Shown piece by piece: positions 531-57,554 of a stretch of DNA of 64,000 bases. The first letter of the stretch is position 1. Every line of letters starts with the position of its first letter. Source of the DNA: an uncultured Deferribacterales bacterium (GTDB taxonomy: Bacteria; Chrysiogenota; Deferribacteres; Deferribacterales; Mucispirillaceae); contig CANTXF010000044.1 of NCBI GenBank assembly GCA_947853665.1, positions 1 to 64,000 on the forward strand. The letters are read 5' to 3'. The translations under genes were made by a program, and so were the position numbers. A model generated the notes under the pieces. It ran no database searches. It had not been told where the DNA came from and worked only from the letters and a program-made list of their open reading frames with translations.

Positions 531-644
531 GCCGTGCCCCGTAAAATATTGTTTTTTTCCAAAAAAACATTGAATTATACATCTTTGTTCTGATAATATA
601 CAAAATTGGCCGCACGGTAAACGGTACCGGTGCGTTAAAAATAA

Positions 645-875
645 TCGCAAGCTATACCCTTACATAGATTAATAAAGTTACGGGAAATATTTATAATACG
701 GCGGCTTGCTCATATCAATAAATAATAAGACTAAAAAGCGCTTGGCAAGGCGCTGTCTAAGTGGCTTTTGCCCCGGATTTGCCTGCCTGAGCAGGTCTTA
801 TTATGAATATTTTTGACGTTACGGAGCATTATTATAATTATTTGCCGTAACTATCTGCTTCAGGGGATAGCCGCC
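645..875 (+). repeat. Dispersed intergenic inverted-repeat element, copy A
   Basis: A non-coding block of about 230 bp whose ends are imperfect inverted repeats. The left end reads GCTATACCCTTACATAG, then AGTTACGGGAAATATTTATAAT-like sequence; the right end, reverse-complemented, reads GGCTATCCCCTGAAGCAGAT, then AGTTACGGCAAATAATTATAAT. The centre carries CTTGCTCAT, a hairpin-forming GCGCTTGGCAAGGCGC segment and GTCTTATTATGAAT. The same layout recurs at 15175, 19362, 19537 and 57327. It contains no credible ORF. With the terminator at 495 it accounts for most of the 445-901 gap; 531-644 is AT-rich and shows nothing definite. Confidence 0.8.
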
Positions 876-901
876 AAAATAAAAATAAGGTGCCAGGTTT
901 G

Positions 902-7784: not shown

Positions 7785-10214
7785 TTAAGAGAATTTCGGG
7801 TTGTCAAGCTCTTTGCGGTCAACCACGTACCTTTCGGCCACGTTTTTGGGCCCGCTGAACCTGGTAATCTTAACAGCGGACACTTTGTAGTCCGGCTCGG
7901 AGGAACCGGCGTCTATAACATCGCTGCATATAAAGTTTACCATACGGTCGGCTTTCTGGTCGTGCATGGGCACGAACACCACGCCCTCGAGAGTCATGTT
8001 GACGACTCTTGCCGGCAGGATATTGTAGCCTCTCACGCTTTCGACCTTAACCATATCGCCCTGCTTTATGCCCAGCTTCTTCGCATCGTTTACGTGTATC
8101 TCCACGAAGGAGTTGGGGTGAGCCTGGGCAGTTTCCGGTATGCGCATTGTCATGGTGCCCGTATGCCATTGCTCCAGAACCCGGCCCGTGGTCATCAGGA
8201 ACGGATACTCTTTCGAGGTCTGCTCGCTGGTGTTTTCGTGGCCGCGGCAAAATACGTTCATCCTGCCGTCGGGACGTCCGTAAAAGTATATCCTTTTAAC
8301 GTTTTCGGGTATTTTATACCCGTATCTCGCAGGGTCGTCGAAAATGGGGTCCATCCCCGGGACGTAGCGCTTGTAGGTGCCGGGGTGCTTTTCGTCCGGG
8401 CAGGGCCACTGAACGCCGGTAACGGATTTTTTAAGGCGAGCGTAGGTGGCTCCTTTAAGGGTTTTTTCCGTATTGGCGGTGCAGCCCGTATAATCGTTCC
8501 AGGCCATTTCGTTCATTTTGGATATGTCTTCCTCGCCCGACCACTGGATATATTTGCCGAGACCCATACGCTTTGCTATCTGGCATGCTATCCAGAGATC
8601 CGGCTTGGCCTCTCCGGGAGGGTTGACGGCTTTAGTGGTAAGGAAGCTGCGGCGCTCGGAGCAGCCGTATACGCCTCCCTTTTCGTAGATGAAGGCGGCT
8701 GGCAGCACGACGCTTGCAAGCTGGGCCGTCCTCGTTGGGAAAATATCTATTACGACGGTAAAAGCGTCCCTCATTCCGGGAATGAACCTGTTTGTGTTAG
8801 GCAGAGACTGGGCCGGGTTGGTAGTGGATATTACCACGGCTTTTACCGGTTTCGTCTCGTCGTTTTCCGCGCCGAGGCTCGAGAAGAGCTTTACGGCGTG
8901 CATTCCGGGTTTGGGGTTTATGGCCTTGGAGGGATTTATGCAGTTTTCGGAAACCTTCCAGTAAGCCTCCACTTTTTTACGCCAAGGCTCCGCCGCTACG
9001 GGCCGGCATCCCGGAAGCAGGTGGGAGAGGGAACCGGTTTCCCTTACTCCGCCGCACGCGTTTGGCTGACCCGTAAGCGAGAAGGAATCCGCTCCCGGCT
9101 TTCCGAACATGCCGGTTATAGCGTGGAGGTTGTGCACAAGGTTGTTTGCGAACACGCCGTTGGAACGCTGGTTCAGGCCCATGCACCACATGGAGAGGGA
9201 AGCGCCGCTCTTGGCGAATATTTCCGAGGCCTGCTTCACGTGGGCCGCCGGGCATCCCGTTACCGACTCGACGAATTCCGGAGTGTATTTGTCTATGAAT
9301 TTAACGTATTCCTCGAAAGTTATTTCCTCGGAACCGTCGCCTTTTGTAAAGCGCGAATGGTTGGCTATGAAATCTTTGTCATGCCAGCCGTTTTTGATTA
9401 TTTCGCGGGCCATGCCGTTGAATATGGCCGCGTCCGTACCCGGCTTGAAAGGCATCCAGAGGTCCGCTATGTTGGCGGTTTTGGTTCTTCTGGGTTCGCA
9501 GACTATCACCTTTACGCCGGGGTTGTCCTTCTTATAGCGGGCTATCCTTCTGAAAAGGATAGGGTGGGCTTCCGACGTGTTGGAGCCGGTCAGAAATATA
9601 CATTTTGCTTTTTCTATGTCTTCGTAGGCTCCCGCCGGTTCGTCGGAGCCTAAAGAGCCGAGGTAGGCACCGACGGCGGAAGCCATGCAGAGGCGCGGGT
9701 TGCCGTCCACCATGTTTGAGCCGAAGCCGCCTTTCCAGAGTTTGTTGAAAGTGTAGCTTTCCTCCGTGGTGCACTGGCCGGAGCCGTAATAAGCCACGGA
9801 GTCGTAGCCGAATTTTTTATGGTATTCCTTGAATTTCTTTTCTATGAGGGAAAGGGCCTCGTCCCATGTGGCCGGCTGGAGCTTGCCCTTTGCGTCCCTT
9901 ATAAGGGGGGTCGTGAGCCTGTCCGGATGGTAGGCAACTTTAAATATGTTCATGCCTTTTACGCAGAGGAAGCCTTTCGTGTTGGTTTTGGAGTCCACGT
10001 TGCCTTTCATGGCCACCATTTTGCCGTCCTTAACCCCAACGTATACGCTGCACCCCGTGCCGCACATACGGCAGACGCCTTTTACCCAGTTGTCTACGGC
10101 TGCTCCGGCCGTTTCCTGAGCCCCGGCCTTTTCAGGCGCGATACCGGCCGCCGCCGCGGCTCCCGCCGCCAGAGCGGCCTTTATGAAATTTCTTCTGGTA
10201 ATATCGGTAATCAT
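7785..10214 (-). CDS. napA: NapA, periplasmic nitrate reductase catalytic subunit
   Basis: 809 residues of the bis-MGD molybdoenzyme family, reducing nitrate to nitrite in the periplasm. A Tat signal (TRRNFIK, residues 6-12, then an Ala-rich segment) precedes the 4Fe-4S ligands C48, C51, C55 and C84. C176 in RLCMASAV is the expected molybdenum ligand. The C-terminus has the molydopterin dinucleotide-binding fold (LMTTGRVLEQWHTGTMT). napB and napC are absent; the order M-A-D-G-H matches the sulfate-reducer type (Desulfovibrio desulfuricans napCMADGH minus napC), where NapA functions without NapB. It follows napM by 12 bases. Confidence 0.96.
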   Translation of the reverse strand: MITDITRRNFIKAALAAGAAAAAGIAPEKAGAQETAGAAVDNWVKGVCRMCGTGCSVYVGVKDGKMVAMKGNVDSKTNTKGFLCVKGMNIFKVAYHPDRLTTPLIRDAKGKLQPATWDEALSLIEKKFKEYHKKFGYDSVAYYGSGQCTTEESYTFNKLWKGGFGSNMVDGNPRLCMASAVGAYLGSLGSDEPAGAYEDIEKAKCIFLTGSNTSEAHPILFRRIARYKKDNPGVKVIVCEPRRTKTANIADLWMPFKPGTDAAIFNGMAREIIKNGWHDKDFIANHSRFTKGDGSEEITFEEYVKFIDKYTPEFVESVTGCPAAHVKQASEIFAKSGASLSMWCMGLNQRSNGVFANNLVHNLHAITGMFGKPGADSFSLTGQPNACGGVRETGSLSHLLPGCRPVAAEPWRKKVEAYWKVSENCINPSKAINPKPGMHAVKLFSSLGAENDETKPVKAVVISTTNPAQSLPNTNRFIPGMRDAFTVVIDIFPTRTAQLASVVLPAAFIYEKGGVYGCSERRSFLTTKAVNPPGEAKPDLWIACQIAKRMGLGKYIQWSGEEDISKMNEMAWNDYTGCTANTEKTLKGATYARLKKSVTGVQWPCPDEKHPGTYKRYVPGMDPIFDDPARYGYKIPENVKRIYFYGRPDGRMNVFCRGHENTSEQTSKEYPFLMTTGRVLEQWHTGTMTMRIPETAQAHPNSFVEIHVNDAKKLGIKQGDMVKVESVRGYNILPARVVNMTLEGVVFVPMHDQKADRMVNFICSDVIDAGSSEPDYKVSAVKITRFSGPKNVAERYVVDRKELDNPKFS

Positions 10215-10226
10215 CAGTATCGCCTC

Positions 10227-10628
10227 CTATTTAGCGTGGACGGATTTTTTCTCTTTTTTCACGGTAAAATCGTGAGCTTCGTGGCAGTTAACGCATATTA
10301 TGCGTCCTTCTTTCGCTTCTGTTTTTCTTTTTATGACGGACGTCTCGCCCGGATGGCACGATATGCAGTTGTCAATGCTGGAAGCGGCGCGGAAATTGCT
10401 TTCGTCGCCGTGGCAAGTGGCGCAGCTTACGTTATTAAGGCCGTGCATGCTGGCCGCCCACTGCTTGCCCGCCGGAGATTCGGATTTCATTTCCGATACG
10501 GAGTTTTCCCCGTGGCAGTACAGACAGTCGTTGCCTTCCATTTCCACCGGATGGGTGTCCGCGGCCCATACCGCGGCGGCCGTACCGAAAAGGCAGGCGC
10601 AGACCGTAAGAAGCAGGTATTTCTTCAT
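10227..10628 (-). CDS. napM: NapM-like periplasmic tetraheme cytochrome c
   Basis: 133 residues. A Sec signal peptide (about 1-22, cleavage near VWA-ADT) is followed by four CXXCH motifs at 35-39 (CLYCH), 69-73 (CATCH), 88-92 (CISCH) and 112-116 (CVNCH), with extra His residues available as sixth ligands. A small tetraheme cytochrome directly before napA matches NapM of sulfate reducers, a proposed electron carrier to NapA in systems lacking NapB. It is the first gene of the nap operon; the leader has GGAGGGGAATC ahead of the ATG. It shares its upstream region with the divergent nitrite reductase gene. Confidence 0.85.
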   Translation of the reverse strand: MKKYLLLTVCACLFGTAAAVWAADTHPVEMEGNDCLYCHGENSVSEMKSESPAGKQWAASMHGLNNVSCATCHGDESNFRAASSIDNCISCHPGETSVIKRKTEAKEGRIICVNCHEAHDFTVKKEKKSVHAK

Positions 10629-14035: not shown

Positions 14036-15106
14036 ATGCTTACCGACTTGACAGCGGTTTCCGGGCTTTTATATCTGGGAGCGATGGTGTTTTATACCGG
14101 GTTCCTTTTTTTCAGGAAGATGTGGCTTGGCAGGGCGGCCACGGTTTTGTGCGTTTTGGGCGTTCTGTTCCACGCGGGCGCGTTTTTGTTCCGGTGGAAG
14201 AGTTTTTACTCCCTTTACGGCGACTCTCTTTTAAGGTCGGTGCCTATAACCAATCTGTATGAGTCGCTGCAGTTTTTCGCTCTGCTGCTTATGGTTGTTT
14301 ATATTATATTCGAATTTAAATCCCGTATGAGGGCTGCCGGGGCTTTCGCCGCCGCTGTGGCTGGGGCCACCGTGCTTTTTATAGACGCAGTAGGCGCTTC
14401 CGGGCAGATGCAGCCTCTCGTGCCCGCTCTCCAGAGCAACTGGCTTCTGGCCCATGTGTCTTTGAGCTTTATCGCTTATGTGTTTTTCGCTTTGTCGGCC
14501 ATAGCGGCCTTTCTCTATCTTATACTTACATCCGCCAAAAGGACGTCAGCGGCCTATATATTCTGGACGGCCGTTGTTGGTATCGCCACCTCCGGGCTTT
14601 TCGCCCTTATTTTTGACGGAGTGATAGCTTATTTTAACGGGGATCTGGCGAAGTTCCGCCTTTTTTCCGCCACTTTGAACAACAGCCTTACGGCCGTTAA
14701 GCTGATGTTTCTGTTTTTTACCATGTTCGTCGTGCTGTTTTTCTGGTACGAGGGTCTTAATATAAGAAAAGTGTTAGGCAGGTTCGAGCTGGATACGGAT
14801 AAGCTGGACGTGCTTACTTATAAATTCGCGGTAATGGGCTTTGCCATTTTTACCGTCGGCGGTCTTATTTTCGGAGCGGTATGGGCTGAGCAGGCCTGGG
14901 GCAGATACTGGAGCTGGGACCCTAAAGAAACCTGGGCCTTTATAACATGGCTTGTTTACGGCGTTTATCTGCACGGCAGGATTACGGGACGTTGGAGCAA
15001 AAGTCTGGCCGCATGCCTTGCCGTAATCGGTTTTATACTGACTATTTTTACATATCTTGGCGTAAATCTTCTGCTTTCCGGCCTGCATAGCTACGGCAGT
15101 CTTTAA
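14036..15106 (+). CDS. ccsA: CcsA, haem-handling cytochrome c assembly protein
   Basis: 356 residues and about eight transmembrane helices. The tryptophan-rich WWD segment WGRYWSWDPKETWAF near the C-terminus is the haem-presenting loop of CcsA/CcmF/CcmC proteins, followed by ITWLVYGVYLHGR with a conserved His. It is the partner of the ResB protein 55 bases upstream. Wolinella encodes a fused CcsBA protein (NrfI) beside nrfA that is needed for the CXXCK haem; this unfused pair beside a CXXCK octaheme enzyme may have the same dedicated role (inference). A terminator follows. Confidence 0.9.
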   Translation: MLTDLTAVSGLLYLGAMVFYTGFLFFRKMWLGRAATVLCVLGVLFHAGAFLFRWKSFYSLYGDSLLRSVPITNLYESLQFFALLLMVVYIIFEFKSRMRAAGAFAAAVAGATVLFIDAVGASGQMQPLVPALQSNWLLAHVSLSFIAYVFFALSAIAAFLYLILTSAKRTSAAYIFWTAVVGIATSGLFALIFDGVIAYFNGDLAKFRLFSATLNNSLTAVKLMFLFFTMFVVLFFWYEGLNIRKVLGRFELDTDKLDVLTYKFAVMGFAIFTVGGLIFGAVWAEQAWGRYWSWDPKETWAFITWLVYGVYLHGRITGRWSKSLAACLAVIGFILTIFTYLGVNLLLSGLHSYGSL

Positions 15107-15174: not shown

Positions 15175-15394
15175 GGCGGCTGTCTACTGACGCAGATAGT
15201 TATGGAAGATGATCATATAATGCTCTTTAGCCGTCACAGATATTCATAATAAGACCTGCGCTGCAAGGTAAACTTAAGCCAAGTCCCATTTGGGCAGCGC
15301 CTTGCCAATGGCTTCGGGTGAGATTATTTATTGCCGCCGCTATTATAAGTATTTTCCATAACTTTATATTAATATATGTAAGGGGATAGCCGCG
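15175..15394 (-). repeat. Dispersed intergenic inverted-repeat element, copy B (inverted)
   Basis: The same element as at 645, in the opposite orientation. It begins GGCGGCTGTCTACTGACGC, then AGATAGTTATGG, and contains CATAATAAGACCTGC and GGGCAGCGCCTTGCCAATGG. It ends CATAACTTTATATTAATATA, then TGTAAGGGGATAGCCGC, which is the reverse complement of copy A's left end. It fills the gap between the convergent ccsA and the Crp/Fnr gene; nothing else is visible there apart from the ccsA terminator. Confidence 0.8.
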
Positions 15395-15428: not shown

Positions 15429-16070
15429 TTATATGAGGGTTATCCTTTTGCCCGTTTCTTTTATTATTCCGTCGTTTTTAAGCCTGGCGAAAAGTCTGGA
15501 TACTGTTTCGGGCGTCGTTCCCAGAAGCAGGGCCAGCTCTCCCTTTGCTACGGGAAGGGCAAAGCTTGATTCCCCCGTTTTTTCCGACAGGCTTTTAAGG
15601 TATTTTACCAGCCTTCCCATGGCGTCGTCCGCCGTAAGCCCGTTTATCATATCCACCAGATACCTTAGCCGGGAAGCCATCAAGCCGAACATACGCATCA
15701 TGAAATCCGGGTTTGCTGCGGAAAATTCCCTGATTTTTTCTATATTCAGGGCCAAAAGCTCCGACTTTTCCAGAGCGGAGGCGTTTACCGGATATTTGTC
15801 CATATTGGCAAGTATAGCTTCGGCGAAGGTTTCGCCCGGCGTTACGAACCGTATTACCGTTTCTCTGCCGTCGCTTGAGGCGCGTGAAAGCTTTATGCCT
15901 CCGGAGGCCACGTAATACATGTTTTCCGCCGCGCTTCCTTCCGTAAAAAGTATTTCTCTGGGTTCTAAGGTAATGAATTTTGAAAGGCCGTTCAGCTTAT
16001 CCGTAAATACCTTTTCTTCCGTTCCCAGAAAATTTTTCGCCAGATATTTTACAGCAGTATTTTTATCCAT
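15429..16070 (-). CDS. Crp/Fnr-family transcription regulator, HcpR-like
   Basis: 213 residues: N-terminal cyclic-nucleotide-type beta-barrel (about 25-125), a long dimerisation helix, and a C-terminal winged helix. The recognition helix TPETVSRLFARL keeps the E-x-x-S-R residues that in FNR read TTGAT. There are no cysteines, so unlike FNR it cannot hold an Fe-S cluster; HcpR-type and DNR-type members use haem to sense NO (family knowledge). It is divergent from hcp with 70 bases between them, and a TTGA-N6-TCAA site abuts its start codon, which implies control of hcp and of itself. HcpR is the most likely identity. Confidence 0.85.
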   Translation of the reverse strand: MDKNTAVKYLAKNFLGTEEKVFTDKLNGLSKFITLEPREILFTEGSAAENMYYVASGGIKLSRASSDGRETVIRFVTPGETFAEAILANMDKYPVNASALEKSELLALNIEKIREFSAANPDFMMRMFGLMASRLRYLVDMINGLTADDAMGRLVKYLKSLSEKTGESSFALPVAKGELALLLGTTPETVSRLFARLKNDGIIKETGKRITLI

Positions 16071-18888: not shown

Positions 18889-19344
18889 ATGAAAAAAATC
18901 AAATCTATCGGCCTAGTAGCCCACGACGCCAGAAAAAAAGATATGGTGGAGTGGGTGGAATTTAACGGAAAAAGGCTGGGCAGACACAGACTTATATGCA
19001 CGGGAACCACCGGCCGGCTTGTGGAGGAGGTCTACGATGCCAAATATCCGGAACTGCACGTGGATATAGTAAAGCTGAAATCTGGCCCTCTGGGTGGCGA
19101 TCAGCAGATGGGGGCGCTTATCGCCGGAGGTGAGCTTGATATACTCATATTTTTTATAGACCCGATGACGACCCAGCCCCACGATGTGGATATAAAGGCT
19201 CTTGAGCGTATGTGCTCCGTATATAACGTGGTGATAGCTTGCACCCGTTCTACGGCGGATTTTGTGATATCCTCCCATCTGTTTGAGGAGGACTATGATC
19301 CCGTGGTTTCAGATTATGCCGGATACCTGCACAGGAGCGTATAA
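18889..19344 (+). CDS. mgsA: Methylglyoxal synthase
   Basis: 151 residues. It converts dihydroxyacetone phosphate to methylglyoxal and phosphate, a glycolytic bypass used under phosphate limitation. The family motifs are intact: LVAHDARKKDM, CTGTTGRLV, KSGPLGGDQQMGALI with the catalytic Asp, IFFIDPMTTQPHDVDI, and ACTRSTADFVISS. Length matches E. coli MgsA. The leader has GAGGAG 9 bases before the ATG. It stands alone, preceded by a short gap and followed by repeat copies C1 and C2. Confidence 0.96.
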   Translation: MKKIKSIGLVAHDARKKDMVEWVEFNGKRLGRHRLICTGTTGRLVEEVYDAKYPELHVDIVKLKSGPLGGDQQMGALIAGGELDILIFFIDPMTTQPHDVDIKALERMCSVYNVVIACTRSTADFVISSHLFEEDYDPVVSDYAGYLHRSV

Positions 19345-19361: not shown

Positions 19362-19515
19362 GCGGCCGTATCTTTACGCGGATTAGTATAAAGTTATGGA
19401 GAATATTTATAATAAGGCTGCTTGTTCACGGCGATAAACAACCGGTGCGAACTGGTATCGCAATCCGTTCCGCAGCCCGCTCTGCCGAGGGGCTTATTAT
19501 GAAGGGTCGGCGGCG
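19362..19515 (+). repeat. Dispersed intergenic element, copy C1 (partial)
   Basis: Aligns with the left half of copy A: GCCGTATCTTTACGCGGATT, then AAAGTTATGGAGAATATTTA, then CTTGTTCACGGCGATAAACA. It ends GGGGCTTATTATGAAGGGTC without the distal inverted repeat. It is followed immediately by the full copy C2, so this is a tandem arrangement with one truncated member. Confidence 0.65.
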
Positions 19516-19536
19516 TTTAAAGAGCCTATATATAAT

Positions 19537-19770
19537 TAGCCGCAGCTATGCCCTTACACGGATCAGCGTAAAGTTATGGAAGATATTTATAATACACGAC
19601 TTGCTCATATCTATGAATAATAAGGCTAAAAGCGTTCGGCAGGGCGCTGTTTGACGGGCAAGGCCCCATAGTCCGCTTTGCCGCGCATGTCTTATTATGA
19701 ATGTTTTTGACGGCTAAGGCACATTATTATAATTATTTGCCGTAACTATATGCGTCGGAGGACAGCCGCC
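19537..19770 (+). repeat. Dispersed intergenic element, copy C2
   Basis: Full-length copy in the same orientation as copy A and the closest match to it. It starts TAGCCGCAGCTATGCCCTTA and contains CTTGCTCATATC, GAATAATAAGGCTAAAAGCG and GTCTTATTATGAATG. It ends CATTATTATAATTATTTGCC, then GTAACTATATGCG and GACAGCCGCC. C1 and C2 fill most of the gap between mgsA and the MFS gene; the remaining 19771-19947 has a GC hairpin (CCGGCCTG with CAGGCCGG) but no gene. Confidence 0.8.
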
Positions 19771-19947
19771 GGTTTTTATAGCGGAGCGGTTTGCGGCGGC
19801 GGTTAATGACCGGCCTGAAGCCTATTTCTGATGGCAGGCCGGGCGGCAAACAGACAGGCGGCGCGGCGGAATTTATTGCGGCCGTTTCCCATATCTATCC
19901 GCGAGGGGGAGTGGAACGGCTGCCTTTTTAAAAAAGGGGGGGATTAT

Positions 19948-21195
19948 ATGGAAGGGGAGGCGCCGGAGGGTAAGCGTGCCGGGTATCTTTTTATCACTCT
20001 TATCGCGGGGGCGGCGTATTTTACCGTTTTTGCCCACAGGTTCGTTCCGGCCGTAGTGGCCGTCGATATGAGCCGCGATATAGGGGCGGGAGCGGCAATG
20101 CTCGGTATGCTCAGCTCCGGTTATTTTTATATGTACGGTCTTTCGCAGATGCCTTACGGCGTTCTGGTGGATTCCGTAGGGCCGCGCAGGATAATGACCG
20201 TTTCTTTCATTACGGCGGGTCTGGGCGGCGTTCTTTTCGCTTTTTCTCCGGGGCCCGGCTGGTCTTTCGCCGCAAGGCTTATATTGGGCCTTGGCTGCGC
20301 GGCCGCTCTCGTTTCGTCCATGACTCTGCTGGCCCGCTGGATACCTAAAGATAAATTTCCCGCTTACCTTACCCTGCTGTACGTTATAGGCGGGCTTGGC
20401 CCTCTTGCGGCTGCTTCGCCGCTTGCCTGGCTCAGCTCCCATATAGGATGGCGCGGCGCGTGTTTTTCCATAGCCGTTTTTACCCTGGCCTATTCGGCCG
20501 TCCTTTTCGCCGTAGTGCGCGATTATCCTCCGGGGCGCGCGCCCTCCGCCGCAGGCAGGGTTCGGGGAGGAATGTTCGCGGGAGTAAAAACTGTTGCCGG
20601 CAGCTTTAAATTCTGGATGACGGTGATTTTCGGCATAGGCGTGCCTTCGATTTATCTCGTTTACTGCGGTCTCTGGGCCGGGCCTTTTCTTACCCATGTT
20701 TACGGGTTTGAGAAGCATGCGGTGGGCGGCGTGCTTTCCTTCGGCGCGGCGGGCTCCGTGCTGGGCTTTTTGCTGGGCCCTCTGCTTTCCGACAGGATAC
20801 TGATGTCACGCCCTAAGGTAATGGTTCTTTTCGGATGCCTGCTTTTTATATGCCTTTTGCCCTTTATATTGCGGATAAGGCTTTCCTTTCCGCTTTTGTG
20901 CGCTCAGGCCGCATTTATAGGCGTTTTTTCATGCGGAGCCCAGCCTGTGGTGATTATGGCGGTTAAGGATATGTTTCCCGTAAGCATAACGGGAACGGCC
21001 CTGGGTATGTTCAATACTTTTCCCCTTTTATGCGGGGGCCTTTTGCAGCTTCTTATAGGCGTGATACTGTCCGTCCTGACGGAAGGAGACCGGACTGCTT
21101 CCGAAGCGGATTATGCCGGGGCCTTTTCCGTAATGGCCGCCGTGTGCGTCGCCGGAATAGGGGCCGCGTTTTTTATTTCGGACAGAAAGGTCTAA
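19948..21195 (+). CDS. Major facilitator superfamily transporter
   Basis: 415 residues, about 12 transmembrane helices with the loop 2-3 signature as GVLVDSVGPRRIM (variant of GxLaDrxGrR). Start chosen at ATG 19948 (MEGEAPEGKRAGYLF), preceded by GGGGGGGA; the frame extends 39 codons upstream without a better start. The N-terminal pattern FAHRFVPAVVAVDMSRD resembles uncharacterised MFS members. The substrate cannot be inferred. The gene is single, and its end overlaps by four bases the convergent DKNYY gene. Confidence 0.85.
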   Translation: MEGEAPEGKRAGYLFITLIAGAAYFTVFAHRFVPAVVAVDMSRDIGAGAAMLGMLSSGYFYMYGLSQMPYGVLVDSVGPRRIMTVSFITAGLGGVLFAFSPGPGWSFAARLILGLGCAAALVSSMTLLARWIPKDKFPAYLTLLYVIGGLGPLAAASPLAWLSSHIGWRGACFSIAVFTLAYSAVLFAVVRDYPPGRAPSAAGRVRGGMFAGVKTVAGSFKFWMTVIFGIGVPSIYLVYCGLWAGPFLTHVYGFEKHAVGGVLSFGAAGSVLGFLLGPLLSDRILMSRPKVMVLFGCLLFICLLPFILRIRLSFPLLCAQAAFIGVFSCGAQPVVIMAVKDMFPVSITGTALGMFNTFPLLCGGLLQLLIGVILSVLTEGDRTASEADYAGAFSVMAAVCVAGIGAAFFISDRKV

Positions 21196-23897
21196 AACAG
21201 GCCGCCAAGAGCTTCGGAAATATATTCGTCGTTTTCCGGCTCTTTTACGGGTACGCCTTTGCGCCAGAAAATATACCCGTCCGTGGCGTAGCCGTTTCCG
21301 AGAAGGTGCGTGGCTTTTTGTGAGCCTAAGGGTATATCTCCGTAATAACATTCGTTTCCGTCGGTGGCGTAACCGTCTCCGAGAAATACGAAGGAGGCGG
21401 CGTCCGCTTCCGGAATTTTTACGTTGCCGCAGAAAACGGAGCTTTTATCTTTAAGGTAATCCCCGCCCAGAAGCTCCGCCGTTCCCATATCGAGGTTTTC
21501 CACTGAAAGGCCGCGGAAAAACATGCCGTTTCTGTCCAGAGAGAAAGATGGCTCCGTTTCCACTATGTCGAAGCTGTTGGCGTCGGCCTCGAAAAGGTTT
21601 ACCGTAAAGCCTTCTTCCGTTTTTTCGGCGTAGCAGAAAAGCACGTCGTCCTTTATATATCTGCCGCCCAGAACCATTACGTTTTCCGGGAATATACCCT
21701 CTATCTTTTCCGTTTCCAGATAAACGCCGTTTATGTCCTTATAAAACGAATATTCTAGAAGGGTAAAGGAGGGGGCGTCTATATAGGGTATCGCCTCGCC
21801 GTTTTTAAAGAGGAAGTTTTTGTCTTTCCACACGTCCTTTATATCGTGGGCGCAGAATGTGGCTGGGTCGGCGGCTTCTATTTTCCTGCCCCTGAAATAA
21901 ACTCCGGAGGAATCCTTGCCGTAAAGGAGGCCGCCGCCGTGCCCGCGGGCTTCTCCACCGCGAAGCAGGATAAACGTTTCCGGGTCCGCCCCGTCGGCGG
22001 GTTTGCCCATAAAATATACCCTTTTTGCGTCTTTCGCGTAATCGTTTCTTCCGCCGGAGTTTCTTTTTTCTTCTTCCGAGGATATGGTGTCGAGGACGCT
22101 TTCCGCTCCGGCGGTTTTGATTTCCGTTTCTTCTTCCGGCACGGGGGAGAAAGTGTCCCTGTCGGCTCCTTCTATTATGCGGCTTTCATAGTAGACGTTT
22201 TTACGGTCCTTAAAATAGGCTCCCGTTACCGGCTCCATATCTTCTATATATTTTTTGGAATACTGTTCGTCGAAGCTGTATTTCGCGAACCTGTCGGAGG
22301 CGGAGCCGTAGCCTTCCGGCCTGAACGACGAGGCGTCCGCGTTTTTTATCTGCCTGTCCCTGAAAAAGATAGTGTTTCCGTCTCTTGCGTAGCCGAAGCC
22401 CAGAGGTTCGAAGGTTTTGGGCGAAGCTGGGATCTTTTTGCCGCAGAAAAAGACGGAGAAAGCGTCCGTTACGTATCCGTCTCCGTACCTGTCGCTTATA
22501 TCCGCCGTGGCCCCGTCAGCGCCTTCTATTACGCAGCCTTTATAGTAAACGTTTTTCTTGTCGGCTGCGAAAAGCCCGCGGACCTTTATTTCCGCCGGGT
22601 CGGTTTCCGGCAGAACGGTAACGCAGCCGTTTTTTACGAAAAACACGTTATACGGGTCGGCGATATAGCAGTCGCTGAATACCTTTATGCCTCGCGGCAC
22701 GCAGCCGTCTATAATTTCCGGACCCCAGTAAACGTTGCTTCTGTCTTTGAAAAAACGTTTTTCTATATGCTCGAAAGAGGCGGCGTCTATATAGTCTATC
22801 CTTTTGCCTTCAAAATATACGTTTTTGCCGTCCGAGCCGAAATATACCCCATCGTTTTCCCTGCCGTCGCCTACGGCGTAAAAGGCCGCAGGGTCGCACC
22901 CTTCCACGGGAGCCCCGCAGTAATATACGGTTTCCCCGTCGGTGGCGTATCCGTAAGCCGGCCTTAACGCTCTGAAATTCCTGCCGCCGCATATCGGTAT
23001 ACCCTTAAAGTAGCCTCTTTTAGCGTCCCTGGCATACTCCCAGGGGATAACGGCAAAGGTTCCCGCGTCCGCCCCTTCCATCATGTCGGAGCCGTAGTAA
23101 ACCCGGTTGGCGTCTTTGGCGTAGTAGCTTCCCAGGGATACGAAAGTAAAAGGGTCCGCTCCGTTTATAACGGAGCCGTATACGTTCAACACGTTTTTTC
23201 CGTCGGTAAGATAAAGGGCGTCTTCCGTAAGGATATTGGGCTCTTCCGGCGTGGCGCTGAGCACGGCGCTTTCCGCTCCGTTTTCAAGGCGCTTGCCGAC
23301 GATTGAGGCAAATTTTGCAGCCACTTCCGCTTCCACCTGCCCGGCGCGCTGTTTTCCGCTTTCGGCCGAATATTCCTCCAGTGCCCGGAGGTAAAGCTCG
23401 TCCAGATGCTCCGGCAGAGATTTTTTACCGTCGCTTTCGCCTTTTATTTTAATCTCTTTCCGGCCTATCTCTATGAAGCAGGCCAAATTTTCCGCGTCGC
23501 CCATGGATACAGCGCATATATCCGGCTCCGCCTCTTCGCGGAAGTTTGCTGCGGAAGCTAAAACAGCCGCGCTTTCAAGGGCCTGCCGTATGCTTTCAGC
23601 CGTGAGGATTCTTACGAATTCAAGCACGGAGTTTTTTTTGTCGTAAAGGAGTCTCATCATGTCTTTTCTGCCGCGGGGGCCGGACCGGGCCATTTCCTCC
23701 GCGAAAAAGTCCGCCGGGGAAAGGCCGTCTTTTAAGGCGCCGCGCCCGTTTAAAAATTCTTCGAAAACCTGCGTGAAGGCGGAACCGCTTTCCGTGTACG
23801 TTACCCTTTCGGGGGCGGCTATGCCGGATGCAAGCCACGAGGCGTACATGGTTTCCCGTATTTTCACTTTACCTATAACGAACCATTTGTTTGACAT
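21192..23897 (-). CDS. Giant DKNYY-repeat protein, function unknown
   Basis: 901 residues with no signal peptide or membrane segment. The N-terminal 230 residues are unrelated, mostly helical and acidic, and unrecognised. From about 230 to the end there are about 20 tandem units of 30-45 residues with the pattern Y-x-x-D-x-x-x-V-Y-Y-x-G-x-x-I-x-x-A-D-x-x-S-F, for example YYAKDANRVYYGSDMMEGAD and YFKDRKNVYYESRIIEGAD. This is the DKNYY family (Pfam), usually found in much shorter proteins or lipoproteins and of unknown function. The repeat is probably a beta-rich solenoid or propeller-like binding surface (inference). It is flanked by divergent lipoprotein and convergent MFS genes, so there is no operon context. 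Confidence 0.85.
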   Translation of the reverse strand: MSNKWFVIGKVKIRETMYASWLASGIAAPERVTYTESGSAFTQVFEEFLNGRGALKDGLSPADFFAEEMARSGPRGRKDMMRLLYDKKNSVLEFVRILTAESIRQALESAAVLASAANFREEAEPDICAVSMGDAENLACFIEIGRKEIKIKGESDGKKSLPEHLDELYLRALEEYSAESGKQRAGQVEAEVAAKFASIVGKRLENGAESAVLSATPEEPNILTEDALYLTDGKNVLNVYGSVINGADPFTFVSLGSYYAKDANRVYYGSDMMEGADAGTFAVIPWEYARDAKRGYFKGIPICGGRNFRALRPAYGYATDGETVYYCGAPVEGCDPAAFYAVGDGRENDGVYFGSDGKNVYFEGKRIDYIDAASFEHIEKRFFKDRSNVYWGPEIIDGCVPRGIKVFSDCYIADPYNVFFVKNGCVTVLPETDPAEIKVRGLFAADKKNVYYKGCVIEGADGATADISDRYGDGYVTDAFSVFFCGKKIPASPKTFEPLGFGYARDGNTIFFRDRQIKNADASSFRPEGYGSASDRFAKYSFDEQYSKKYIEDMEPVTGAYFKDRKNVYYESRIIEGADRDTFSPVPEEETEIKTAGAESVLDTISSEEEKRNSGGRNDYAKDAKRVYFMGKPADGADPETFILLRGGEARGHGGGLLYGKDSSGVYFRGRKIEAADPATFCAHDIKDVWKDKNFLFKNGEAIPYIDAPSFTLLEYSFYKDINGVYLETEKIEGIFPENVMVLGGRYIKDDVLFCYAEKTEEGFTVNLFEADANSFDIVETEPSFSLDRNGMFFRGLSVENLDMGTAELLGGDYLKDKSSVFCGNVKIPEADAASFVFLGDGYATDGNECYYGDIPLGSQKATHLLGNGYATDGYIFWRKGVPVKEPENDEYISEALGGLF

Positions 23898-31808: not shown

Positions 31809-31996
31809 AAAAACGGGAGCGGGTTTATTTGTCCCCGCTCGTTTGGGAGCAAGCTCGGATTAGAAACATCCGCATAAATAAGGCGGATGTTTTCTATCCA
31901 CCAAAACGGGAGCGGGCTTATTTATCCCCGCTCGTTTGAGAGCAAGCTCGGAACAGAAACATCCGCATAAAACGAGGCGGATGTTTTCTATCTACC
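31809..31996. repeat. Tandem 93-bp repeat of a double hairpin
   Basis: Two nearly identical units (31810-31902 and 31903-31995) with the start of a diverged third unit (ACCAAATGGGGACGCGC). Each unit holds a GAGCGGG...CCCGCTC hairpin (31817-31840 in unit 1) and a terminator-like hairpin ACATCCGC...GCGGATGT plus TTTT (31866-31893 and 31959-31987). It lies in the divergent gap between the TonB receptor and the small ORF at 32078, where terminators are not expected. The rest of the 31635-32077 gap holds the two Fur-like sites and AT-rich sequence. Confidence 0.8.
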
Positions 31997-32077
31997 AAAT
32001 GGGGACGCGCATTATTTGCGGGCGGAAAGCGAGCCTCTATTGGCACAAATAATTTAAACGAGGCTTATAATATACTT

Positions 32078-40938: not shown

Positions 40939-41012
40939 GCGCTCATAGCTCAAATGGATAGAGCATTTGACTACGGATCAAAAGGTTGGGGGTTCGACTC
41001 CTCCTGGGCGCA
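40939..41012 (+). tRNA. tRNA-Arg (anticodon ACG)
   Basis: 74 bases fold as a cloverleaf: acceptor GCGCTCA with TGGGCGC, D arm AGCTC...GAGC, anticodon stem TTTGA/TCAAA around loop CTACGGA (anticodon ACG, reads CGU and, as inosine, CGC/CGA), T arm GGGGG TTCGACTC CTCC. CCA is not encoded. An AT-rich upstream region (40754-40938) is the likely promoter. The ORFs overlapping it are spurious. Confidence 0.95.
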
Positions 41013-41052: not shown

Positions 41053-41247
41053 ATCAGAATAATACCCTTTCGCAAACCGGCGTAAAATTATTGCGGAACA
41101 TTTTGCAGGCGGCTTCCAGGCAGCGGCTGATAATTATGCCCGGGCGCCTTTTGCGGGCGCTTTTTAGTAAGCTCCGGGTTTATCCCGCTTATGAAGCGGG
41201 CGTTACTGTCATTTTCCGCTGTTATCGGCGCCGCGATACGGCAGCCC

Positions 41248-56081: not shown

Positions 56082-57323
56082 ATGACAGAAAAACGCCTTC
56101 CTTTTTCAAAAGAAACCCTTGAAAAGATCGCGGAGAAATATCCTACGCCTTTCCATATATACGACGAGAAAGCCATAAGGGAAAACGCCGTGGAATTTTT
56201 AAAAGCCTTTTCTTGGGCGGAGGGCTTCAGAGAATATTTCGCCGTAAAGGCTCTTCCGAACCCTTCCGTGCTTAAGCTCCTTGCTTCATTAGGCTTCGGG
56301 GCCGACTGCAGCTCCATGGCGGAGCTTATTCTGTGCGAAAAGGCGGGTATAGGGGGCGAGATGATAATGTTTACCTCCAACGACACGCCTGCGGAGGAGT
56401 ATAAAAAAGCCTTCGAGCTTGGCGCCGTAATAAATCTGGACGATATAACCCATATAGATTTTCTTGAAAAGACTCTCGGCCGCCTGCCGGAGCTGCTTTG
56501 CTTCCGCTATAACCCCGGCCCGCTGAAAGGTGGGAACTCCATAATAGGAAAGCCGGAGGAAGCCAAATACGGCCTTACTACGGAGCAGATGAAGGAGGCC
56601 TATAAAATAGCTGCGGAAAAAGGCGTAAAGCGTTTCGCCATGCATACCATGGTGGCTTCTAACGAGCTTAACCCTGATTATTTCGCAGAAACCGCCCTTA
56701 TCCTTTTCAGGCTGGCTGCGGAAATAGAGGACTCTCTCGGCATAAAAATGGAGTTCGTCAACCTGGGAGGCGGCATCGGCATTCCGTACAGGCCGGACCA
56801 GACGCGCATAGAATGGAGCGTCCTTTCCGAAAAAATAAAGAAAATATACGATACTGTATTTTCGGCGCGTTCCCATAAGCCTAAAATATTTTACGAGCTG
56901 GGCAGGGCCATAACCGGCCCTTACGGCTATCTGGTTACGAGAGCCATACACAGAAAGAGCATATATAAAAATTATATCGGCGTGGACGCCTGCATGGCGA
57001 ACCTTATGAGGCCAGGCATGTACGGGGCCTACCACCATATTACTGTCGCCGGCAAGGAGAAGGCCCCGCTTTCCGAAATGTACGACGTTTCAGGCTCTCT
57101 CTGCGAAAATAACGATAAATTCGCCGTTGACAGAAAGCTGCCGGAAATAGAAATCGGAGATTTACTGGTAATACACGATACGGGAGCCCACGGCCACGCT
57201 ATGGGATTTAACTATAACGGCAAGCTGCGTTCGGCCGAATTGCTCCTTAAAGAAGACGGTTCCGTGGAGATGATACGCAGGGCGGAAACTCTTGACGACC
57301 TTTTCGCCACGCTTAATTTTTAA
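56082..57323 (+). CDS. lysA: Diaminopimelate decarboxylase-like PLP enzyme
   Basis: 413 residues. It decarboxylates meso-diaminopimelate to lysine, the last step of the pathway. Fold type III barrel: PLP-binding Lys56 in YFAVKALPNP, then GADCSSMAELILCEKAG, HTMVASNEL, FVNLGGGIGIPY for phosphate binding and ELGRAITGPYG. The C-terminal domain has SGSLCENNDKFA and HDTGAHGHAMGFNYNGKLRS. Start chosen at ATG 56082 after AGGAG; a TTG 15 bases earlier precedes that site. This sequence type differs from E. coli LysA, and related decarboxylases such as carboxynorspermidine decarboxylase are less likely given the CE-x-x-D motif. Confidence 0.88.
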   Translation: MTEKRLPFSKETLEKIAEKYPTPFHIYDEKAIRENAVEFLKAFSWAEGFREYFAVKALPNPSVLKLLASLGFGADCSSMAELILCEKAGIGGEMIMFTSNDTPAEEYKKAFELGAVINLDDITHIDFLEKTLGRLPELLCFRYNPGPLKGGNSIIGKPEEAKYGLTTEQMKEAYKIAAEKGVKRFAMHTMVASNELNPDYFAETALILFRLAAEIEDSLGIKMEFVNLGGGIGIPYRPDQTRIEWSVLSEKIKKIYDTVFSARSHKPKIFYELGRAITGPYGYLVTRAIHRKSIYKNYIGVDACMANLMRPGMYGAYHHITVAGKEKAPLSEMYDVSGSLCENNDKFAVDRKLPEIEIGDLLVIHDTGAHGHAMGFNYNGKLRSAELLLKEDGSVEMIRRAETLDDLFATLNF

Positions 57324-57326
57324 TTC

Positions 57327-57456
57327 GGCCGCAGCTTTGCGCAGTCCGGCATAAAGCTGGATATTTGTAATAATAAGGGTCTTGCTCCGTGCCGGTTATG
57401 CAAGGGGATAGCTTTATAATTAATATATATAACTATCTGCCTTAAGGCGCAGGGGC
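57327..57456 (+). repeat. Dispersed intergenic element, copy D (short, degenerate)
   Basis: About 130 bases that keep both ends: GGCCGCAGCTTTGCGC ... CATAAAGCTGGATATTTGTA and TTTATAATTAATATATATAA, then CTATCTGCC; inner CTTGCTCCG matches CTTGCTCAT of copies A and C2. The centre is deleted relative to copy A. It lies between lysA and the HD protein gene. Confidence 0.55.
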
Positions 57457-57554
57457 GTTTAATTTTTTTGCAGGCCGTCTTGCTCTATAAGGGATGACGG
57501 CGGAGTTTATTTTTTTATCTGCCGCGTTTTGCCGCGGCGCGGGAGGATTGTTTG

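Follow-up and report, generated by a model that had tools for sequence, protein, structure and literature searches.

An inverted-repeat element of about 230 bp recurs between the genes of an uncultured Deferribacterales bacterium, which raises the question of whether it is a transposon remnant, a structured RNA or an extragenic palindrome of another kind. A sequence-only reading of one 64-kb stretch of this genome (64,000 nucleotides, hereafter the window) had described five such copies as MITE-like, and had proposed a consensus, searches of the genome and its relatives, and a check for target-site duplications and a partner transposase. The window copies were reproduced by direct reading, alignment and profile search (Table 1), and the repeat family is real: four of the five are strong by profile, and copy 5 stands on its ends and its duplication. 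The count itself fell short, since a degenerate sixth copy, situated directly after a tRNA gene (40939-41012), had been overlooked. The positions given were correct within a few bases, copy 1 being better placed at 646-875. The claims that all window copies are intergenic and that two are in tandem (from 19362 and 19541) were borne out, though copy 3 of this pair lacks its right end, which is missing at the point where copy 4 starts.

Table 1. Copies of the element and their target-site duplications in the window.
Feature	Position	Strand	Evidence or sequence
Copy 1, full length	646-875	+	Profile match 650-875, E 8e-58; direct reading
Copy 1, left target-site duplication	638-645	.	AAAATAAT
Copy 1, right target-site duplication	876-883	.	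AAAATAAA; 7 of 8 bases agree with left
Copy 2, full length, inverted	15175-15394	-	Profile match 15175-15393, E 7e-46
Copy 3, partial	19362-19538	+	Profile match, E 6e-17
Copy 4, full length	19541-19770	+	Profile match 19542-19770, E 7e-54
Copy 6, degenerate	41059-41206	+	Profile match, E 2e-5
Copy 5, deleted centre	57326-57457	+	Both ends legible; profile only at right end
Copy 5, left target-site duplication	57319-57325	.	TTTAATT
Copy 5, right target-site duplication	57458-57464	.	TTTAATT

Copy 1 lies between an open-ended frame ending at 444, putatively of methyl-accepting type by reading only, and a gene for a livH-type permease (Pfam) that starts at 890 or 902 and ends at 1966. Copy 2 is flanked by convergent genes for a cytochrome c assembly protein (14036-15106) and a Crp-type regulator (15429-16070). 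Copy 4 has an MGS-domain gene upstream (18889-19344) and an MFS transporter gene downstream (19831-21195). Flank comparison showed that the target-site duplication of copy 2 is no longer recognisable, and none was recognisable for copy 4. The profile match of copy 5 is restricted to its right end (57406-57452, E 0.045); we accepted this copy because both of its ends are legible, as is a perfect duplication of 7 bp. It is inserted into a decarboxylase gene's stop codon, which occupies 57321-57323 and is inside the left duplication. As a separate observation, the window encodes a 901-amino-acid protein with six DKNYY-family stretches (21192-23897, minus strand).

We then consider the genome as a whole, a draft of 2.43 Mb in 68 contigs, many of which end inside copies, such that copy numbers are approximate. 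With copy 1 as query, BLAST returned 45 matches, the best of which were 84-87% identical across nearly the whole 231 bp. A profile built from an alignment of the BLAST-found copies gave 153 genome matches, some of these being one palindrome detected on both strands; merging of strands within the retrieved DNA left 121 rows at E ≤ 1e-4, counting fragments and a few 'core-only' relatives. The consensus and genome search that had been proposed thus located about 120 distinct copies or fragments on many contigs, far above chance, of which no fewer than 40 are nearly complete. Median identity was 83% to the consensus and 74% between pairs, the closest pair reaching 92.5%. This roughly star-like divergence suggests spread from a few source copies followed by drift.

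The alignments defined a unit of about 231 bp with constant length and fixed ends. In one orientation the 231-bp consensus starts CGCA(A/G)CTATACCCTTACG and finishes CGTTAGGGGATAGCCGCC. The whole element is an imperfect palindrome, its right half approximating the reverse complement of its left half, so that the ends pair as terminal inverted repeats and the inverted repeat continues through the whole length. The consensus folds into a single long hairpin with 84 predicted pairs and a GC-rich centre. No gene was seen inside the 231-bp unit, a length insufficient for a transposase.

Evidence for mobility came from the flanks. For the 55 two-ended copies we compared left and right flanks, using as control flanks re-paired between different copies (2000 re-pairings). 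At an offset of 8 bp, flank identity was 70% versus 43% in the re-paired controls (z = 11.5); z was 3.2-4.8 at 5-7 and 9 bp and about 0-1 at 10-12 bp. A duplication score of at least 7 was found in 21 of the 55 copies, compared with a mean of 2.6 and a maximum of 9 in the controls. Examples are TAATACTA, TTAAAAAT, AAATTAAA, TTTTGTTT and TTATTTTA. The A/T content is 73-100% over the 10-11 bases flanking each side and about 50% farther out; because the controls retain this A/T-richness, base composition does not account for the 8-bp signal. Copies closer to the consensus had no better duplications (Spearman 0.10, p 0.45), giving no age signal. The 8-bp duplications are the trace of staggered-cut insertion and set the element apart from repeats that merely look palindromic.

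These data confirmed the earlier description of the copies as MITE-like mobile inverted repeats, by way of 8-bp duplications in A/T-rich DNA. A constant length with constant ends and no transposase gene inside, terminal inverted repeats, a constant duplication and many dispersed copies are structural features by which MITEs are recognised (criteria reviewed in PMC10969869), and we found these four here. The element is therefore very probably a MITE, a non-autonomous DNA transposon of 231 bp that is palindromic throughout. It constitutes a well-documented high-copy family, occupying roughly 1% of the genome, in a little-studied bacterium, and its copies probably account for many of the contig breaks in the assembly.

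From the ends, the duplications and the target bias, all of which are observed, we infer an enzyme and a cut-and-join chemistry. Presumably a DDE-type transposase supplied in trans recognised the matching ends; the element would have been excised or copied and then inserted where the two strands of A/T-rich DNA had been cut 8 bp apart, with gap filling at these cuts giving rise to the 8-bp direct repeats. All copies would trace back to one consensus in a roughly star-like manner, with drift since then. Insertions within genes were presumably purged by selection, which would leave copies in A/T-rich intergenic DNA. With neighbouring genes called as simple open frames, 39 of the gaps holding copies are between co-directional genes, 19 are convergent and 9 divergent, and 5 copies overlap an open frame; relative to tandem genes both orientations occur (25 and 14). 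Long joined frames at three loci (L035, L065 and L093) were considered as possible gene interruptions, yet none yielded a convincing interrupted gene, the neighbours at L093 being convergent genes that end at the element. Adjacent copies occur on contig C12 (about 9,765-10,241) as well as in the window (19362-19770), and a preference for A/T-rich targets would encourage such side-by-side insertion.

Which transposase moved the MITE, and was that enzyme lost or missed? The earlier remark that no transposase is visible holds genome-wide for the six Pfam families sought, and the partner search found none. PF01609, PF12762, PF01610, PF03400 and PF13610 (including the IS1595, ISL3, IS1 and IS6/IS240 families) had no match in the draft genome. 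PF00872 identified a single intact IS256-type transposase (contig C16, 253918-254964), the only DDE match from the six families; it was rejected as partner, since its ends (GAGCCTGTTTTGAA...) differ and its DNA contains no profile match. Solitary element ends on contigs C64 (L049) and C54 (L065) were likewise examined as possible traces of a full-length insertion sequence, and their surroundings proved to be ordinary genes or other repeats. In the draft genome the terminal-repeat pattern was, beyond the known copies, about as frequent as a reversed control pattern (comparison by hand). The partner may have been lost, may be foreign, may be hidden at a contig break or may come from a family beyond those six. 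Mobilisation by an undescribed or unrecognised transposase family, for which the full-length palindrome would perhaps be mechanistic as a hairpin single-strand intermediate, is suggested by the fact that the ends, the 8-bp spacing and the palindrome fit no resident transposase among those sought; we regard this as improbable.

The proposed search of relatives was run and confined the family to its source: by profile search the element is present in 1 of 46 genomes of the order, a set that includes no other genome of the genus. Absence from the other 45 is as expected of a lineage-specific invader. Weak matches in two of these genomes, G005 and G006, were judged to be chance, the G006 sequence proving on inspection to be A/T-rich DNA of a different sort. 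The exact inner motif was found neither in a GTDB-based contig collection, from which the genome itself is possibly excluded, nor in viral contigs; distant BLAST found nothing in plasmids and phages, and the right-end sequence alone gave only short, chance-like plasmid matches. These absences hold at the sensitivity of the searches. G+C is about 50% in the window versus 31% in two 3-kb loci (L041 and L043) of same-family genomes.

The stability of the consensus hairpin (-80 to -98 kcal/mol) is what might be expected if the repeats were a conserved structured RNA or a terminator or mRNA-end element, the long hairpin being kept for its effects on transcript termination or stability. Terminator-like sites around copy 1 (2 versus 0.4 expected) and the excess of convergent over divergent gaps, albeit in small numbers, point the same way. 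However, pairing has drifted. Paired cells amounted to 82.3% versus 81.1% when partners were dealt anew, and changes were mostly one-sided; two-sided compensated cells numbered 161 versus 109 (s.d. 10) in shuffles, a modest excess attainable through subfamily relatedness. Nor do the copies fold better than simulated sequences, with a mean of -66.7 kcal/mol versus -68.9 kcal/mol for independent-column simulations. Rfam gave no match, copies occupy both orientations and divergent gaps, and a structured RNA leaves the 8-bp duplications unexplained. The suggestion that the repeats act as structured RNA at mRNA ends was thus not upheld as a conserved function, and we consider such a function highly improbable. 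Because the covariation and folding tests were negative, the palindrome is better seen as inherited from the transposon than as maintained. Incidental effects of copies on neighbouring genes are possible. Terminator-like hairpins in single copies, and the promoter-like sites described next, are no more than hints.

The MITE also supplies palindromes and possible promoters beside genes, and some copies could in addition have been co-opted, outward promoter-like sites near both ends driving the neighbouring gene. The consensus carries a rightward TTGACG-15-TATAAT and a leftward TTGCCG-17-TATAAA, the best promoter-like scores per copy are 9.4 and 9.1 versus 8.5 and 8.4 in mononucleotide shuffles, and copy 1 abuts the livH-type gene, whose start lies about 15-25 bp past the element. 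The 15-bp spacing is however sub-optimal, the controls for these scores are simple shuffles, and a palindrome with A/T-rich arms makes TATAAT-like words likely anyway. Such co-option, which would add to the MITE reading, is unlikely though not far-fetched.

ERIC is palindromic along its whole length, and ERIC and RUP duplicate TA, whereas the duplications here are of 8 bp; any relation in sequence was checked by Rfam and record searches only. RU-1/ERIC, RU-2 and RU-3 (PMC2229807, PMC2759123) and pneumococcal RUP/BOX (PMC3049150) are likewise intergenic, non-autonomous mobile repeats of about 100-230 bp. Being intergenic, palindromic and high in copy number, the element could also be taken for a short extragenic palindrome of REP/ERIC type that does not derive from 8-bp staggered insertion, but a 231-bp unit with defined ends and 8-bp duplications argues otherwise and makes this scarcely credible. 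REP palindromes are not known to generate 8-bp duplications. Although alike as high-copy extragenic palindromes, REP and the GTAG- and CGTC-tagged palindromes measure 20-40 bp and are tagged at a single end (PMC3733652), and we rejected an identification with them on comparison with the 231 bp found here. Among bacterial MITEs that insertion sequences mobilise, MITEAba12 of Acinetobacter (PMC6382973) offers a close parallel. Like the present element it is short and gene-free, has terminal inverted repeats and possible outward promoters, and duplicates a fixed length of A/T-rich target. At 113 bp, however, MITEAba12 has ends of 16 bp, duplicates 9 bp and has a known parent, ISAba12 (PMC6382973), whereas the element described here is 231 bp, palindromic over its full length and flanked by 8-bp duplications, with its parent not found and its copies far more diverged. 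The repeats are a new MITE family of a well-known kind.

A second class of intergenic repeat was also observed, in the window (31810-32005) and at loci L051 (590-770), L054 (260-440) and L053 (150-370). These are mosaics of short hairpins in the fixed setting AGCTCGGAACAGAA-stem-ATTAATAAG-stem'-TTTTCTRTCCACCAA, in which the hairpin module alternates with a companion module, AAAACGGGAGCGGG...CCCGCTCGTTTT. The 8-bp stems vary among modules while pairing is kept (ACATCCGC/GCGGATGT, ACATTTGC/GCAAATGT, ACGTCTGC/GCAGACGT and ACCTTCGC/GCGAAGGT), a stem covariation that contrasts with the MITE. Embedded within the hairpin mosaics are 'type B' relatives of the MITE (L050, L051, L053, L054 with two copies, L055 and L056), which have only the inner ∼150 bp in common with it (GTTTTTATAATAAGGCG...GGGGCTTTTGCCCC...) and differ in their outer arms.
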